Virus record (IMG/VR): IMGVR_UViG_3300021067_000010
Coordinates: 1 to 44,297 of that record
Source of the DNA: a virus
Length of the DNA: 44,297 nucleotides
Reading direction: 5' to 3' (one strand)
The position numbers and the translations under genes are program-made. A model generated the notes under the pieces. That model saw nothing but the letters and a program-made list of their open reading frames with translations. It was not told the DNA's origin and ran no database searches. Positions 27,948 through 41,605 of this stretch are shown here, piece by piece (position 1 is the stretch's first letter; each line of letters opens with the position of its first letter).

Positions 27948-28147
27948 TTTGTCTGCTCCTCGATAAACTTGTATGCTTCTTCATTTCTCATAGGTTTAGG
28001 TATTTCTGTGAATCTTGTCAATGTAATTACACTTCCTTCATGATCATACAGCGCAAGAAATTTACTGATTTCTAGTAAATCAGGATTAATAATTGAGTAG
28101 GTTTCGATTCCTGATATAGCATCGATGTCGAGTTTGTAGATTGTCAT
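27944..28147 (-). CDS. Hypothetical protein (67 aa)
   Basis: Beta-alpha layout (TIYKLDIDAISGIETYSIIN, DLLEISKFLALYDHEGSVIT). Both ends overlap neighbours by 4 bp, just downstream of the polymerase. Not recognised. Confidence 0.6.
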   Translation of the reverse strand: MTIYKLDIDAISGIETYSIINPDLLEISKFLALYDHEGSVITLTRFTEIPKPMRNEEAYKFIEEQTK

Positions 28148-30621
28148 GCTGCCACCTCGAATTTGAATTTCTTCAATTCCTGATAGTTTGTCCCAATTTC
28201 AATATCGCATGGAATGGATAGCGCGCGTCTTGGTAGACTACAAGCAGAAAAGTCTATAGGTCGTTCCATTTCCTGTCGAATTATAGGAACTATCCAATTA
28301 ACAGCAGAAACAGGAACAGAAAATAACAGCGCGTCATGAGCTTCAAGAATAATTTTGATACCAGGGATTCTCCTCTTAATTCGCATTCCCGCATTCTTAG
28401 TATTGTCACTAACTGCTCGTTGAGGTAAGTACGAAAAAGCTTGTCTAAAAAGTTCTTCTCCGTATCGTTCATAGAAAATCCTTACTCCTCCATGTGGAGC
28501 GTCTACTCCGTAGGGAAGAGGTGCAATGAGACGACGATTCTTAGTTATTGCCGCGATGACTTCGGTGTGAAATACTTTGCGAATCGATGGGGATTTAGAA
28601 TGGAATATTTCGAGCGCGCGTCCTGCATCCGCTTCGCTTATTTGGAGGGGGATTTTGTACTTTCTGGCTTGAGTATTAAGTTCAATACTAGCTCTTCGTT
28701 TTGAAGCTCCAAGGTTTCCTGCATGACGGAGAGTTTTTCCTGCAAAGCGAATTGGTGACTCATATCCAAGAACTTTCTTGCTATAGTCCTGCTCTGTTCC
28801 CCCGAAAAACCACGAAGCAGTAAGTGCATGAATGTCATGTTCGTCATACATCCTCATCATTTCATCATCATTTGCTAGTAATGCTACTACTCTAGCTTCG
28901 GCCTGAGAACTATCAGCCTGGAGGAATACTTCTTCTTCATCTACCACGAACATGGAACGAATATCCTCTCCAATATCTCCATGCTTCGTAATAGTCTGGA
29001 ATGCCATTCCTATTGACTTGTTATTCGTTTTCTTAGTTGCGATATCACCTGTAATCTTATCGTGCGCGGGTCTGATTGGTGGGTCTAATTGGCCGGTTGA
29101 ACTTCTACCAGTTTCGAGACAAGGAAAGAATGTAGTTTTCATCCTTCCATCATAGTCAGGTAGGGCCATGACATACGTTGATTTGGTTTTACTTACTCTC
29201 CGTCCTTCGAGTATTAGTTCGAGAATTCTTTTATGATCTTCGTTCTTCAGACTAGGGGATTGAATGAGTGCAGTAAGATCCTCTTCTCCTGTCGTTAGCT
29301 TTCTTGGTAATCTCAAATTCTCCCATAAAAGAACAGCAATCTGCTTAGGAGAATTCACATTGATGAATGTTCCGGTATGCTGGAATAATTCATAGTTAAT
29401 TCGTTCCATCCATTCTATATACTTTCTTAATAGTTCTTCTCTTCTCGCATTATCGACTCGGAATCCAATAGTTTCCATGTCGAGGTAGAATTCATGAAGA
29501 TGCATGATGAAGTTTTCATAGTATGGTCGCATTCCTAGTTCGTCAAGGTCAGCGTCCATCTTAGTATCAATTTCCCACGTCACACATGCATCGCGCGCGC
29601 AACCAATGAATAGGTCTTTCAGTTCACCATGATACATTCCTTCATGTTTATAGAACGGCTCCTCTGTGTAGAGACTGGTATTGAATCCGAGATTTTTTGG
29701 AAGCTCAGGATTAATTGCGAATGCCTTCAGCATAGTATCTGAATGCAATCTGTCAATCACGAATCCTAATCGCCTTATTTTGTCCTGATCGTACTTGAAA
29801 TTCTGTCCTATCTTCTTGAATCGTGGATTAATGAGTAGTTCAGCCAGGAGAATCCAACAATTAGCCAAATCAGAAGAAGGAATCGAGTCATCCCAGAGAG
29901 ACACGCATATTCCTTCATAGTCATTAAATGCAAGACCGATACAGATAGGAATGCAAGTGCCACCAGCTTCAATGTCGATGGAGAGTTTCTCTGCATTTTT
30001 GTACCTTTCGATGAATTGTGATAGTTGATAGGATGATTTGCAGATGTGTAAATTCCGAGTTGGTAGTATTAACTCAGGAAATTCTGACTGTCGTTTCGCG
30101 CGCTTGAAATCGAATATCATTACCTGCCGCTTCCAGTACCCTTTTATTCCACTCTCTCCTTGCTGGTGAATTAAGTGTGCGGGATGGTATGTCGAGATTG
30201 CTTTTCTACCTCCAGCCCATAGTATCGATCCCCTCCAATCATCGATATTCTTATTCCCTGTAATAAGCTGAAGTGCAGTCGCTCCTAGAATGAGTAGACA
30301 GTTGGGATTCACCTCCTTTATTTCTTGGAAGAGTTCTAATTTCTGTTGCTCTAGATCGATCCCGTAATTCTTTGCTCTGACGTGAAAAGGAATCTTCTTG
30401 TTTTCTGTTGCGAATGGTACAAAGAATTTACATACATTCGTGAGCCAGACTTCATTTCGATTCAGACCACTATCCTTGAATAGTTTATCTAGCTCTGAAC
30501 CCGCTGGCCCAACGAAAGGTTTACCAGCTTCTAACTCTTTGTAGGATGGAGCTTCACCTATCACCATGAGTTTAGGTGATAATGGTCCTATTCCTGGTAT
30601 GTATTTATTCTCGATAGTCAT
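28144..30621 (-). CDS. Uracil-DNA glycosylase / DNA polymerase I fusion
   Basis: 825 residues. N-terminal UDG-like domain (about 1-175): MVIGEAPSYKE (18-29), GKPFVGPAG (33-41), TNVCKF, and HPAHL (146-150), the family 4/SPO1-type pattern. A DnaQ-like 3'-5' exonuclease follows (SIDIEAGG at about 214; NFKYDQDKI; ARDACVTWEI). The C-terminus is a family A polymerase: motif A VFLQADSSQAEARVVALL, motif B KTLRHAGNLGASKRRA, motif C ILEAHDALLF. Motif C has HDA where most family A enzymes have HDE. The protein replicates phage DNA, and the fused UDG could excise or sense uracil in the template; SPO1-type phages have a similar arrangement. The glycosylase catalytic Asp/Glu position holds Glu23 or Ala24, so activity is uncertain. 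Confidence 0.93.
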   Translation of the reverse strand: MTIENKYIPGIGPLSPKLMVIGEAPSYKELEAGKPFVGPAGSELDKLFKDSGLNRNEVWLTNVCKFFVPFATENKKIPFHVRAKNYGIDLEQQKLELFQEIKEVNPNCLLILGATALQLITGNKNIDDWRGSILWAGGRKAISTYHPAHLIHQQGESGIKGYWKRQVMIFDFKRAKRQSEFPELILPTRNLHICKSSYQLSQFIERYKNAEKLSIDIEAGGTCIPICIGLAFNDYEGICVSLWDDSIPSSDLANCWILLAELLINPRFKKIGQNFKYDQDKIRRLGFVIDRLHSDTMLKAFAINPELPKNLGFNTSLYTEEPFYKHEGMYHGELKDLFIGCARDACVTWEIDTKMDADLDELGMRPYYENFIMHLHEFYLDMETIGFRVDNARREELLRKYIEWMERINYELFQHTGTFINVNSPKQIAVLLWENLRLPRKLTTGEEDLTALIQSPSLKNEDHKRILELILEGRRVSKTKSTYVMALPDYDGRMKTTFFPCLETGRSSTGQLDPPIRPAHDKITGDIATKKTNNKSIGMAFQTITKHGDIGEDIRSMFVVDEEEVFLQADSSQAEARVVALLANDDEMMRMYDEHDIHALTASWFFGGTEQDYSKKVLGYESPIRFAGKTLRHAGNLGASKRRASIELNTQARKYKIPLQISEADAGRALEIFHSKSPSIRKVFHTEVIAAITKNRRLIAPLPYGVDAPHGGVRIFYERYGEELFRQAFSYLPQRAVSDNTKNAGMRIKRRIPGIKIILEAHDALLFSVPVSAVNWIVPIIRQEMERPIDFSACSLPRRALSIPCDIEIGTNYQELKKFKFEVAA

Positions 30622-31633: not shown

Positions 31634-31777
31634 TTGTGTGGATGGCTGAACTAAGATTCGGACGAGTGAATCTAGACTGTCTTATTCGTGTTAGTCATTA
31701 GAAGTCACCCTTTCGAGCTTTTCCAGGTCTAATCAGGAAGTCTAATGAGTCACCTTAGTTCGACAGCATCCACACAA
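31634..31777 (-). ncRNA. Structured noncoding element, probable RNA (144 nt)
   Basis: The ends pair as TTGTGTGGATG with CATCCACACAA (11 bp), CTG with CAG (3 bp) and AACTAAG with CTTAGTT (7 bp), separated by a 1-nt and a 3-nt bulge: a 21-bp bulged stem. Within the 98-nt loop, TCATTAGA (31695-31702) pairs with TCTAATGA (31741-31748), and a small hairpin closes ATTC/GAAT, giving a multibranch shape. Two copies of AGTCACC flank the inner helices. It lies between the acidic gene and the ssDNA-binding-like gene. The strand is assumed from the flanking genes. It could be a stable RNA, a processed leader or a cruciform protein site. Confidence 0.6.
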
Positions 31778-31786
31778 ATTGAATTA

Positions 31787-32185: not shown

Positions 32186-32977
32186 TTACTTGACTCCTGA
32201 GGATGGGAAAGGTGTAGTGGGTTTGGGGTTGAATTTCTGTATGACAGGTAGAAGAAATTCATCATACAGCGGTCTATTCCCGAATACAATCTCGGGTGGT
32301 AATGGAAGGCTCGTTCGCGCGAAATCGTCTCCAGTGTGAGTGGTTTTTAAAGCATAGTTTCCCTCCTTGTCAGCTTGCATATCTGGTTTGATGTTGAAGT
32401 GATAAACTTCGGTGCAGTAGCCAGGAATCTTTTGGGCAATTCCTTTACCAGCAGTGACAATAGTGCGCGCCATGTGAGTCTTACCTTCACGCACTTGTTC
32501 TCGCTGGATAACGTGTGCGATGAGGATGACATTCGTTCCGTGATACTTGTGAATGTCCTTTAATTTCGAGACTAAATCCTGTAAAGCAGATTCTTCTGCC
32601 TTATAATCCTCGATGGAATTGACAGGAATTCCTCCTACTTTATTTGGTTCTCCTTTTATCCTCATTGTTCCTTTGTTGATACCATCCGCATTACTCGTTA
32701 TGGTATCTACAATGAGAGTCTTGAATTTACAATTTACTTGAAAATCCTTCAGTTTCTTCTCCGCTTTACTCCATTCTGTATAATCATCGTATTCTACTTC
32801 TTCTGGTTTCACTCCCCAATTCCTCATGGGAATAATGAGAGATTCCATCTTCCTATCCCATGAGAACCAGTATTGGGGTCGGGGGAATGATAGTGCTGCT
32901 GTTGATTTTCTTGTACCTGGCTCACCTTTAAATAAGCAGAACAAACTATTTAGTGTGACATTAGACATATTTGGCAT
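32186..32977 (-). CDS. AAA_24/Sak4-type recombination ATPase
   Basis: 263 residues. Walker A is GEPGTRKS (18-25), Walker B is TLIVD (87-91), followed by a RecA-like core (DLVSKLKDIHKYHGTNVILI AHV as strand 4) and a C-terminal basic/proline tail. Such ATPases (AAA_24, including Sak4) act with a ssDNA-binding partner in phage recombination and replication. The first 18 codons (MPNMSNVTLNSLFCLFKG) are a second version of a 5' end whose original copy survives at 33353-33412 beyond the HNH gene, so this coding sequence was rebuilt when the HNH gene inserted. It has its own AAGGAG, and its start overlaps the HNH stop (TAATG). Confidence 0.87.
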   Translation of the reverse strand: MPNMSNVTLNSLFCLFKGEPGTRKSTAALSFPRPQYWFSWDRKMESLIIPMRNWGVKPEEVEYDDYTEWSKAEKKLKDFQVNCKFKTLIVDTITSNADGINKGTMRIKGEPNKVGGIPVNSIEDYKAEESALQDLVSKLKDIHKYHGTNVILIAHVIQREQVREGKTHMARTIVTAGKGIAQKIPGYCTEVYHFNIKPDMQADKEGNYALKTTHTGDDFARTSLPLPPEIVFGNRPLYDEFLLPVIQKFNPKPTTPFPSSGVK

Positions 32978-33351
32978 TATTTCTCCTTATCTCTCCAATG
33001 AACATAATCTGGACTTCCATTTAAATTTTTAGTGCCATAATGAAACTTTCCATTGGCAATTTGATCTCGAACATTATCGTACTGAGTTCCTACATAAATG
33101 TGTCCATGATACCAGCAGGAACTACTTGTGCAATCTCTTGTGTGATTAGCTTGCACATTTGGATCGTTCAAATCCATTCCATGATGTAGATGAGCTATCA
33201 ATCTGTTAATTCTTATCATTTTTCCATGATACCAAATATAACCATGACCACTTCTTACTTTATATCCTGTCCAAATTAGACAATCTCCTTGCTTAATAGT
33301 TTTCTCCATCAATCTTTCGTACACATCTGTTTTGTATCCTTTTGCTGGCAT
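32977..33351 (-). CDS. HNH homing endonuclease inserted at the ATPase P-loop
   Basis: 124 residues of HNH_3 type: LMEKTIKQGDCLIWTGYKVR, RINRLIAHLHHGMDLNDPNV, ANHTRDCTSSSCWYHGHIYV and GTQYDNVRDQI (the His-x-Cys-x-x-x-x-Cys-x-x-x-x-His-x-x-x-G-T core). It makes site-specific double-strand breaks and usually spreads by homing. It is AT-richer than its surroundings and has no GCGCGC site. Its ribosome-binding site AAAGGAG is part of the interrupted ATPase codons (Lys-Gly of the P-loop), so the gene borrows the target's sequence for its own translation. Its stop overlaps the new ATPase start. Confidence 0.9.
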   Translation of the reverse strand: MPAKGYKTDVYERLMEKTIKQGDCLIWTGYKVRSGHGYIWYHGKMIRINRLIAHLHHGMDLNDPNVQANHTRDCTSSSCWYHGHIYVGTQYDNVRDQIANGKFHYGTKNLNGSPDYVHWRDKEK

Positions 33352-33352
33352 A

Positions 33353-33412
33353 CTAAACTCCTTTGAATAAGCAGAACAAACTATCTAGACTTACAGAGGA
33401 CATGTTAGGCAT
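33353..33412 (-). pseudogene. Remnant 5' end of the ATPase gene (19 codons)
   Basis: Reads MPNMSSVSLDSLFCLFKGV then TAG. It matches the first 18 codons of the downstream ATPase at 15 of 18 residues and about 43 of 54 bases. An 18-base run (TAGTTTGTTCTGCTTATT) is identical. Most differences are synonymous third-position changes. It breaks off exactly after Phe-Lys-Gly, at the first residue of the P-loop, and runs into the HNH gene. It still has the expected operon position, overlapping the end of the preceding gene. Confidence 0.85.
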
Positions 33413-33610
33413 CTATTCTTCTTTCGGAATTGGCATCCATTTATCTGTTGATTCCATACTAATAGGTTCTAATTCACCATCGTGTTTCATTGGAACCCAC
33501 CAAGGAGCGTGCATTCCATAGCATGGAGTAGCTACAAAAGTGTAGTGTCCTCTCTTGACGAGGTAACGCGCGTGAGGCTGAGGATGCTGTCCTTGTATTT
33601 GCTGAAACAT
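33413..33610 (-). CDS. Hypothetical protein (65 aa)
   Basis: Rich in His, Pro and Trp: FQQIQGQHPQPHARYLVKRG, then HAPWWVPMKHDGELEPIS. A compact beta layout with several His residues may bind metal. Its stop abuts the ATPase remnant start, showing that the ATPase originally began directly behind it. Function unknown. Confidence 0.65.
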   Translation of the reverse strand: MFQQIQGQHPQPHARYLVKRGHYTFVATPCYGMHAPWWVPMKHDGELEPISMESTDKWMPIPKEE

Positions 33611-39502: not shown

Positions 39503-41605
39503 TCAAGAAACCTTCTTCTCTCGATTCTTATTCATCCAATCTTTTACAATCGCTTCCGAAAGTTCCTTGATGATATCTGACTGTTTCCACTCGATTGATT
39601 TACCTTTATTCATTGCAGCGTGAAAATATGCTCTCTTTCTTTCCACAATTCCAGCTAAGAATTCATCAACTGTTCCCCCAGCAGTCATATAGGTTGCATT
39701 TACTGCATTTCTCTTTTGACCTATACGAATGAATCTTCCTTCTGCTTGTTCTTCCGAAGAGGGATTCCATTGTCTCTCGTGAAGAATACAGTCAGCGCAT
39801 GTCTGAAGATTCAATCCTTCTCCTGCGGCGAGTGTGGATGCAATGAGAATCGCGCGCGGAGCTTGATTGAATTCTTCCTGTATCTGACTTCTTGCTTCCG
39901 ATGACATTCCACCTTCTAATTTCAGGATAGGAATCTTATGTTCCGCTCGAAGGTCATCATAGAGAATTCTACTAACATCCACATGATGGACGAAGATTAC
40001 GAGTTTGCGGTCAGTCTCTTCGATGAATTCTCTGACGAATTCCTTGGTAGCAGGAATTTTACTCAGTCCGGTAATGTGACGCATTCTCTGCAATCGAGCA
40101 ATGATAGGACCGTCACCACCAAATGCTAATTTATCCTCATCACCACCGATTACTGCTTCGTTGTAATACTTCACGAAATCAGAGACTTCCTCATCGTAGA
40201 GTTGCTGATTTACTTTATCCTGTTCTGTGAATTGGAGCATCCTACTCACTTCAGGAAGTTCGGGCATTACTTCCGCGCGCTCCCTTCTTATTGCTATGTC
40301 ACTTATATACTCTTTGAATTTTTCAGGGTTACGTATACCTCCTTGCTTTGTGTATTGACCTTGTTCGTAGAAGTCTACCCATTTATCGAGAAATGCTTGC
40401 TGTGAATAGAATCGAGTGGGAGCAAGCATATTCAGGACAGTAAAGAATTCTCCACCGCGATTCTTCCATGGAGTTCCAGAGAGTGGAATTACATGGTCAA
40501 CCTTCTGTACAATCCTACGAATCATTTGAGTGCGCGTCGAGTCGGGATTCTTTATTTGCTGGCACTCATCTAGGACTACAGTCTTAATTCCGAGAGCCAA
40601 TACTTTCTCAACGGGCATTCCTTGCGTGATTACTTTTCCCTTGATTGTACGAGATTTCGGAGTGAAGATATCGTAAGAGGCGAGATACGTTTTCATTCCG
40701 GGCACAAGGAAATCAGAAGAAGTATTGATAACCTGACCCATGTATTCCGGACCAAGCCATCGAAATATTTCCTTGAACCACTGAAATTTGATTCCGCTCT
40801 TTATGATGAATAGAACGGGGAAGGATTCAGGATGTTCTTTGATGTAACCTAGTGCTTGAATAGTCTTGCCGAGTCCCATTTCATCGAATATCGCTGCACC
40901 TTTATTCATGGATAGCGATTTCTCGATGAATTGCATTCCTTCTACTTGATAGGGGTAGGGTTTGTATTGCTGGCAGAGGATGCATTGATTCTTATTCCAT
41001 TCGTGCTTACACTCTTTCACATCCGCGCGCCATCCAAATGAGATTAGCTTATGGAATGGAGTTCCTTTCGGAATCTTTACGGTCCTCATATGACCGCATT
41101 CGAGATAGATTGTTTTTAGGTCAGGAAGAGGTTCAGGGAATGGCATTGTGTGTTGTCTTACTTCCTTTGCCACTTTCCCGCAGGATTCACATTTATCTTG
41201 GAGTCTAGTAACTTGATACTTTGGAGTCCTGATTACTTGTTCCTCAAATTCAATCTTTAGCTCCGCTCCACTCCGAATCGCGTCAAGTATTTCAGGAGAG
41301 AATGAAAGATGCGAACAGGGAAGGGTATTCGTGCAACCTAATTCGCGCGCTTTATTGGCCCAAACACTATTATGACCATGACCAGGTGTAAGAGCGTGTG
41401 CAATTTCATGGAGAATGGTATCTTTTACCTCTTCAGCAGGATGTAAGTCAATATGGTGAGCATTTAGAATTATGCATTTATCTTTGTATGAGCATAATCC
41501 GAGAAATGGTTTCGTGGCATCCATTGTGAGACGAACGTGCCATCCTGTTAGATTGTATTCTAACAGTTTATTTCTGCAATAGAGTGTCGCTTCATTTCGT
41601 TCCAT
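39503..41605 (-). CDS. SprT-like metalloprotease fused to SNF2-family ATPase
   Basis: 700 residues. Domain 1 (about 1-100) is SprT-like: zinc protease motif HEIAHALTPGHGHNSVW, with HExxH at 66-70 and a third His at 76 or 78. Domain 2 (about 135-212) holds zinc knuckles (CESC 139-142, a CGH, then CKH and CILC 208-211). Domain 3 is a complete SNF2 helicase-like ATPase: PYQVEGMQFIEKS, DEMGLGKT (Walker A, 244-248), VVLDECQQIKNP (DECQ, 346-349, a DEAH-box variant), IPLSGTPWKN, then ASTLAAGEGLNLQ and SSEEQAEGRFIRIGQKR (motifs V and VI). SprT/Spartan proteases digest proteins crosslinked to DNA; SNF2 motors move along duplex DNA and strip proteins. The fusion plausibly clears DNA-protein roadblocks (inference). 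The start overlaps the upstream gene by one base. Confidence 0.93.
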   Translation of the reverse strand: MERNEATLYCRNKLLEYNLTGWHVRLTMDATKPFLGLCSYKDKCIILNAHHIDLHPAEEVKDTILHEIAHALTPGHGHNSVWANKARELGCTNTLPCSHLSFSPEILDAIRSGAELKIEFEEQVIRTPKYQVTRLQDKCESCGKVAKEVRQHTMPFPEPLPDLKTIYLECGHMRTVKIPKGTPFHKLISFGWRADVKECKHEWNKNQCILCQQYKPYPYQVEGMQFIEKSLSMNKGAAIFDEMGLGKTIQALGYIKEHPESFPVLFIIKSGIKFQWFKEIFRWLGPEYMGQVINTSSDFLVPGMKTYLASYDIFTPKSRTIKGKVITQGMPVEKVLALGIKTVVLDECQQIKNPDSTRTQMIRRIVQKVDHVIPLSGTPWKNRGGEFFTVLNMLAPTRFYSQQAFLDKWVDFYEQGQYTKQGGIRNPEKFKEYISDIAIRRERAEVMPELPEVSRMLQFTEQDKVNQQLYDEEVSDFVKYYNEAVIGGDEDKLAFGGDGPIIARLQRMRHITGLSKIPATKEFVREFIEETDRKLVIFVHHVDVSRILYDDLRAEHKIPILKLEGGMSSEARSQIQEEFNQAPRAILIASTLAAGEGLNLQTCADCILHERQWNPSSEEQAEGRFIRIGQKRNAVNATYMTAGGTVDEFLAGIVERKRAYFHAAMNKGKSIEWKQSDIIKELSEAIVKDWMNKNREKKVS

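Follow-up and report, generated by a model that had tools for sequence, protein, structure and literature searches.

The window analysed here is an entire virus record, 44,297 bases long, whose other genes include those for a UDG-fused family-A polymerase, a primase, a helicase and a terminase. On its minus strand, the reading of the sequence and of the open reading frames (ORFs) discloses the order 65-aa gene, stub of an ATPase 5' end, HNH gene and ATPase gene. The features of the locus are the following:

33413-33610, minus strand: 65-aa gene, the upstream neighbour; its TAG stop directly abuts the ATG of the stub, and likewise the ATPase start in stub-free relatives.
33353-33412, minus strand: ATPase 5'-end stub, 18 codons followed by GTT TAG, readable as a 19-aa leader ORF, MPNMSSVSLDSLFCLFKGV and stop (from the sequence, the ORFs and a search of the record itself).
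33366-33384, minus strand: 19-base perfect repeat ATAGTTTGTTCTGCTTATT, stub copy (mate at 32931-32949).
33358-33364, minus strand: AAAGGAG, the Lys17-Gly18 codons of the stub and also the HNH ribosome-binding site (from the sequence).
32977-33351, minus strand: predicted HNH / His-Me-finger endonuclease gene, 124 aa (PHROG HNH models, alignment, AlphaFold and Foldseek).
32983-32988, minus strand: AAGGAG, the ATPase ribosome-binding site, within the 3' end of the HNH gene (from the sequence).
32924-32977, minus strand: second ATPase 5' end, the copy in use, 18 codons in frame with the P-loop (from the sequence and the comparison of the two copies).
32931-32949, minus strand: 19-base perfect repeat ATAGTTTGTTCTGCTTATT, ATPase copy (mate at 33366-33384).
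32186-32977, minus strand: Sak4-like / AAA_24 P-loop ATPase gene, 263 aa, intact (PF13479, phrog_124, relatives).

The 18 codons of the stub (33412-33359, minus strand) encode MPNMSSVSLDSLFCLFKG, with a stop after them; the HNH gene starts one base past this stop (33351), and its own TAA overlaps the ATPase ATG (32977). The ATPase N-terminus is MPNMSNVTLNSLFCLFKG, or MPNMSNVTLNSLFCLFKGEPGTRKS when the P-loop is included. An earlier note, made from the sequence alone, had described this succession of start codons, stop, HNH gene and new ATG leading into the P-loop, and sequence, ORFs and coordinates are all as it stated; the note had also traced the HNH ribosome-binding site to the remnant, and AAAGGAG (33364-33358) does consist of the Lys-Gly codons of the stub.

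As judged by its sequence matches (PF13479, AAA_24, with an E-value of 3.1e-9; phrog_124, with an E-value of 7.6e-19), the product of the last gene is a Sak4-like single-stranded DNA annealing (recombination) ATPase. Its P-loop reads GEPGTRKS, its relatives are 51-59% identical, and no match was retrieved in the annotated phage collection.

The product of the HNH gene was recognized by PHROG HNH models (E 2.6e-10); Pfam gave no HNH call for it, whereas both PHROGs and the comparison of folds did. In an alignment of 15 sequences, H70, C74, C79 and N93 do not vary, and C24 and H84 hardly do; the protein thus keeps the zinc-type residues C24, C74, C79 and H84 as well as the catalytic-type residues H70 and N93, which we equate with the zinc-binding residues and the catalytic His and Asn of the His-Me finger in I-PpoI and I-HmuI. 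The AlphaFold model (pLDDT 83.6), submitted to Foldseek, retrieved I-HmuI as the best hit (probability 0.99, E 0.018) and I-PpoI as the next, both with weak E-values. Sequence and model together support the prediction of a His-Me-finger homing-type nuclease. As in free-standing HNH homing endonucleases, the nuclease domain with its catalytic residues lies outside an intron or intein, and the presence of the gene varies between close relatives. The scan of the genome collection for the HNH gene gave one distant match, on a Collierbacteria contig.

When the window's own record was searched, the stub came up as the second match of the ATPase (E 1.1e-4). Stub and second start are identical at 43 of 54 bases, while the next best 54-base match to the stub in the entire window, on both strands, reaches 29/54. 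The 11 differences are distributed over the three codon positions as 2/2/7, with six codons differing synonymously and three amino acid changes. Eleven random substitutions would leave at most three amino acid changes (at least 15 of the 18 residues kept) with a probability of about 0.001, and it is therefore supported, at the level of the sequence, that the two starts diverged as coding sequences, in two phage lineages, before they were joined. A profile built on 83 distinct N-termini of relatives scores the stub (58.1) and the copy in use (54.1) in a similar way. The earlier note had reported an agreement of about 43/54, the same six synonymous codons and three residue changes, and had concluded that both copies evolved as coding sequences and came from different lineages; our counts are the same, and the coding-type divergence bears out both conclusions. 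An assembly artefact was also considered: the longest exact repeat between the two copies is 19 bases, which is short for a typical assembler word.

The same pattern makes it very improbable that the native start was simply duplicated, as a target site or in tandem, when the HNH gene was inserted, and that the copies diverged afterwards. Two copies do flank the insert in direct orientation, but 11 differences in 54 bases with a coding pattern are unlike the decay of a dead stub (p about 0.001); moreover, target-site duplications are usually far shorter than the 54 bases found here. HNH nucleases often reside in group I introns and inteins, and one of these elements, or a programmed bypass, might be imagined to join the stub to the ATPase. 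This possibility is extremely remote, since only 60 non-HNH bases exist between the two ATGs, a stop follows the stub, no Rfam family was matched, and the ATPase has a start and a ribosome-binding site of its own. The view of the earlier note that the locus contains neither an intron nor an intein is thus shared here.

The relatives of the ATPase gene were collected through four scans of IMG/VR, three with single ATPase queries and one with an ATPase alignment, which yielded 95 distinct ATPase 5' regions. The upstream gene lies no more than 10 bases from the ATPase start in 71/86 relatives, with a median of -1 base. Since the stub adjoins the upstream gene as native starts do, it is favoured as the recipient's own start and is probably the native ATPase start of the genome that received the HNH gene. 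The base composition points the same way: the GC content is 29.6% in the second 5' end, 37% in the stub, 42% in the ATPase body and about 34.7-34.9% in the HNH gene, which is the lowest-GC minus-strand ORF among those of at least 100 aa, so that the AT-richness of the HNH gene and of the second start agrees with a stub belonging to the recipient, with the reservation that 54 bases are few. In the DNA comparison, the stub and the second copy are, overall, equally near to the relatives (69 versus 67 loci), the best of which is 59% identical at the amino acid level. The comparison of both copies with all the relatives gave no signal that could name a donor, and a relative whose ATPase start matches the stub was not found among those scanned.

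In two relatives, L009 and L052, an orthologous HNH gene (51-52% identity, tblastn) lies directly upstream of the ATPase gene, and GGAG precedes the HNH start there as well. In L052 the last HNH codons overlap the ATPase start, and in L009 nine bases lie between the two genes; both loci have a single intact ATPase start and no stub. L007, whose ATPase is 97% identical in amino acids to that of L009, has no HNH gene at this site. In the ATPase tree the window falls in an eight-row clade with L009, with L052 far away, and its well-supported branches require that the presence of the HNH gene changed three separate times. Since the orthologous HNH genes adjoin a single intact start without a stub, the normal home of the HNH gene is intergenic, welded to the ATPase start, where it is gained and lost, and the stub looks like a one-off.

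These data support a common import of the HNH gene and the second start, which behave as a single unit. Between L009 and L007, divergence is unusually high over the initial 96 bases of the ATPase gene (18/96 versus 49/678 differences, p 7e-4), which would fit an imported start arriving with the HNH gene; this is suggestive at most, as a control pair without an HNH gene has a similar 5' excess (p 0.005) and the signal is therefore unspecific. No excess of 5' divergence was detected between L052 and L057.

More distant HNH relatives were observed directly downstream of the ATPase gene in L029, L035, L061 and L146, and downstream of the polymerase gene in L026 and L077. Their presence after the ATPase or the polymerase in several contigs indicates that the replication operon is a repeated landing place.

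The earlier note saw in the locus a self-repairing, non-disruptive design, i.e., a mobile unit with which the initial codons of its target travel as a rule, so that insertion at the P-loop is harmless. Two features speak for it: in each of the three loci the HNH gene is closely tied at its 3' end to the ATPase start, which the transfer of the unit would therefore bring along, and the two copies of the 19-base repeat are spaced by 435 bases, a multiple of three, so that recombination between them would excise the insert in frame and restore an uninterrupted ATPase gene. Against it stand L009 and L052, and the lack of any recurrence: no second ATPase start was found upstream in about 115 regions (193,652 nt), where the best profile score was 17.3 versus 58.1 for the stub, and the 14 annotated loci examined in phages with members of this HNH family had no copy of the neighbour's start beyond the HNH gene. 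The stub is the only example in everything searched. A regular cassette of this kind is therefore quite improbable. It also appears unlikely that a mobile unit composed of the HNH gene and the target's initial codons enters the P-loop codons harmlessly, imports a foreign start each time and leaves in frame by start-to-start recombination. The claim that the cassette carries the first 18 codons of the target holds insofar as the HNH gene and the second start form one unit; as to the end of the import, codon 18 would be a minimum, the best relative, at 59% amino acid identity, being too distant to place the right boundary. Further HNH cassettes flanked by duplicated starts, as envisaged in the earlier note, did not appear among the about 115 upstream regions or the 14 annotated phage loci; tandem starts without an HNH gene, which would have spoken against that note, were absent from the same upstream regions of relatives.

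In our opinion the locus can be best explained, with a probability of roughly 0.6, as the scar of a one-sided homing event (i.e., double-strand-break repair) between two related phages. In the recipient, the 65-aa gene would have been immediately followed by an uninterrupted ATPase gene, and the donor would have possessed a free-standing HNH gene whose 3' end abutted or overlapped its own ATPase start, as in L009 and L052. A break, for which the HNH enzyme was presumably responsible, would have occurred in the recipient gene close to the codons of the P-loop. On its right side, the ATPase sequences of the two phages would have provided the homology for repair; on its left side, donor and recipient would have had none, and codon 18 of the recipient might have been attached by illegitimate joining to the donor DNA immediately preceding the HNH start, possibly at a microhomology of the AAAGGAG type between the Lys-Gly codons and the ribosome-binding site. 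The product would be composed of the recipient start (the stub), the donor HNH gene, and the donor start and ATPase body, with the ATPase left intact and the HNH gene expressed from the operon of the recipient. We infer the direction of transfer, from the donor HNH unit to the recipient, as well as the initiation by the HNH enzyme and the microhomology. The stub has the appearance of an accident of the repair process and not of a design.

One-sided, illegitimate repair of breaks with microhomology junctions was shown experimentally in T4 homing (Parker et al. 1999, as cited in PMC2988022). The locus would resemble the T4 case in having homology on one side and a microhomology junction on the other, the T4 case being a laboratory intron system and ours a natural junction deduced from the sequence. 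The free-standing enzymes of T4, however, as a rule cleave at a distance of hundreds of bases or more from the gene that encodes them (PMC2988022); a cut at codon 18 is therefore not a given, which counts against homing, and so do the distance of all relatives, too great to fix the right boundary or the direction, and the single occurrence of the stub in everything searched.

The same arrangement might also derive from ordinary mosaic recombination, that is, from an illegitimate crossover between an HNH-free phage, contributing the left arm up to codon 18 of the ATPase, and an HNH-bearing phage, contributing the right arm, with the HNH gene as a passenger and no cut. A passive crossover would leave an identical picture; the upstream region varies among relatives, the control pair also diverges in a recombination-like manner near the ATPase start, and scars at gene-end breakpoints can arise without HNH genes, as in L058. 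Partial gene-end duplication scars are nevertheless rare (about 1 in 700 ORFs), and the present one coincides exactly with the left edge of a gene for a homing-type nuclease, of which the broken gene is the usual neighbour. Mosaic recombination can thus be considered possible, though doubtful.

No other gene-end duplication beside an HNH gene was found in the loci screened or in the 14 annotated phages. In L058 (2379-2550), about 41 bases of the 3' end of a helicase gene are repeated exactly within the beginning of the next gene, which encodes 72 aa, with no HNH gene; being exact, this copy is recent and local, unlike the diverged stub. In L083 (3166-3958), whole genes are duplicated in tandem beside an HNH gene.

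The locus shares with the free-standing (intronless) homing endonucleases of phages (Seg/Mob of T4 and those of T7-like phages, e.g., gp2.8 of BA14) the sporadic presence of the gene, here too a His-Me-finger HNH gene, between conserved replication genes. In isolated phages, members of this HNH family precede the genes for DNA polymerase (BA14), ligase (Bumbleweed), exonuclease (Footloose) and SSB (Conboy), and in all four they overlap the start of the next gene by a few bases. Unlike the 14 free-standing HNH loci tested, the window retains a diverged stub of the neighbour's start. In Aeh1 and T4, free-standing HNH genes (mobE in nrdA and mobA in gene 60, respectively) lie within a conserved phage gene and split it (PMC2988022), whereas the ATPase gene is whole here, a second start having presumably come in.

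Closer in structure are the mobile-ORF hybrids of fungal mitochondria (atp6 of Allomyces; atp6, atp9, cox2 and nad3 of Glomus), where an endonuclease ORF brings a foreign gene end and the native end is left as a remnant (PMC3630166). The window likewise has an endonuclease ORF next to a diverged gene end that stands in frame with the ATPase body, apparently in place of the native end, which persists as a remnant; the divergence of this end suggests its foreign origin. The fungal hybrids concern the C-terminal end, mitochondria and LAGLIDADG or GIY-YIG enzymes, in contrast to the 5' end, the phage and the HNH enzyme of the present case. A duplicated N-terminal part of the host gene has been described in mitochondrial introns of Tremella fuciformis, for which the import of foreign gene starts was proposed (PMC7315562); the duplication is comparable, the difference being that no intron is present here. 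The literature searched, which left most subscription papers outside its scope, contained no phage report of an endonuclease combined with a foreign gene end.

If the locus has been read correctly, it offers a natural snapshot of a free-standing homing nuclease reaching a new genome with one-sided homology, and it carries the mitochondrial hybrid of foreign gene end plus endonuclease over to phages and, within the gene, to the 5' end. Donor, recipient and junction would then be predicted exactly, in a form open to testing, and the locus would show how nucleases of this type could distribute chimeric starts of essential replication genes across phages.

Other features were observed in the window. 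The minus-strand gene at 28144-30621 encodes a family-A DNA polymerase with an N-terminal uracil-DNA glycosylase-like domain and a 3'-5' exonuclease; over the length of this protein, most relatives are about 53-63% identical to it. At 39503-41605 (minus strand), a SNF2-type helicase is fused to an N-terminal SprT-like metalloprotease domain. The intergenic region at 31640-31780 (minus strand) has 11-base complementary ends, TTGTGTGGATG ... CATCCACACAA, matches no Rfam family and folds better than 200/200 shuffles (z -3.2); in L025, L179 and L180, a different short hairpin-like motif, GTGTGG...CCACAC, occupies a similar general position.
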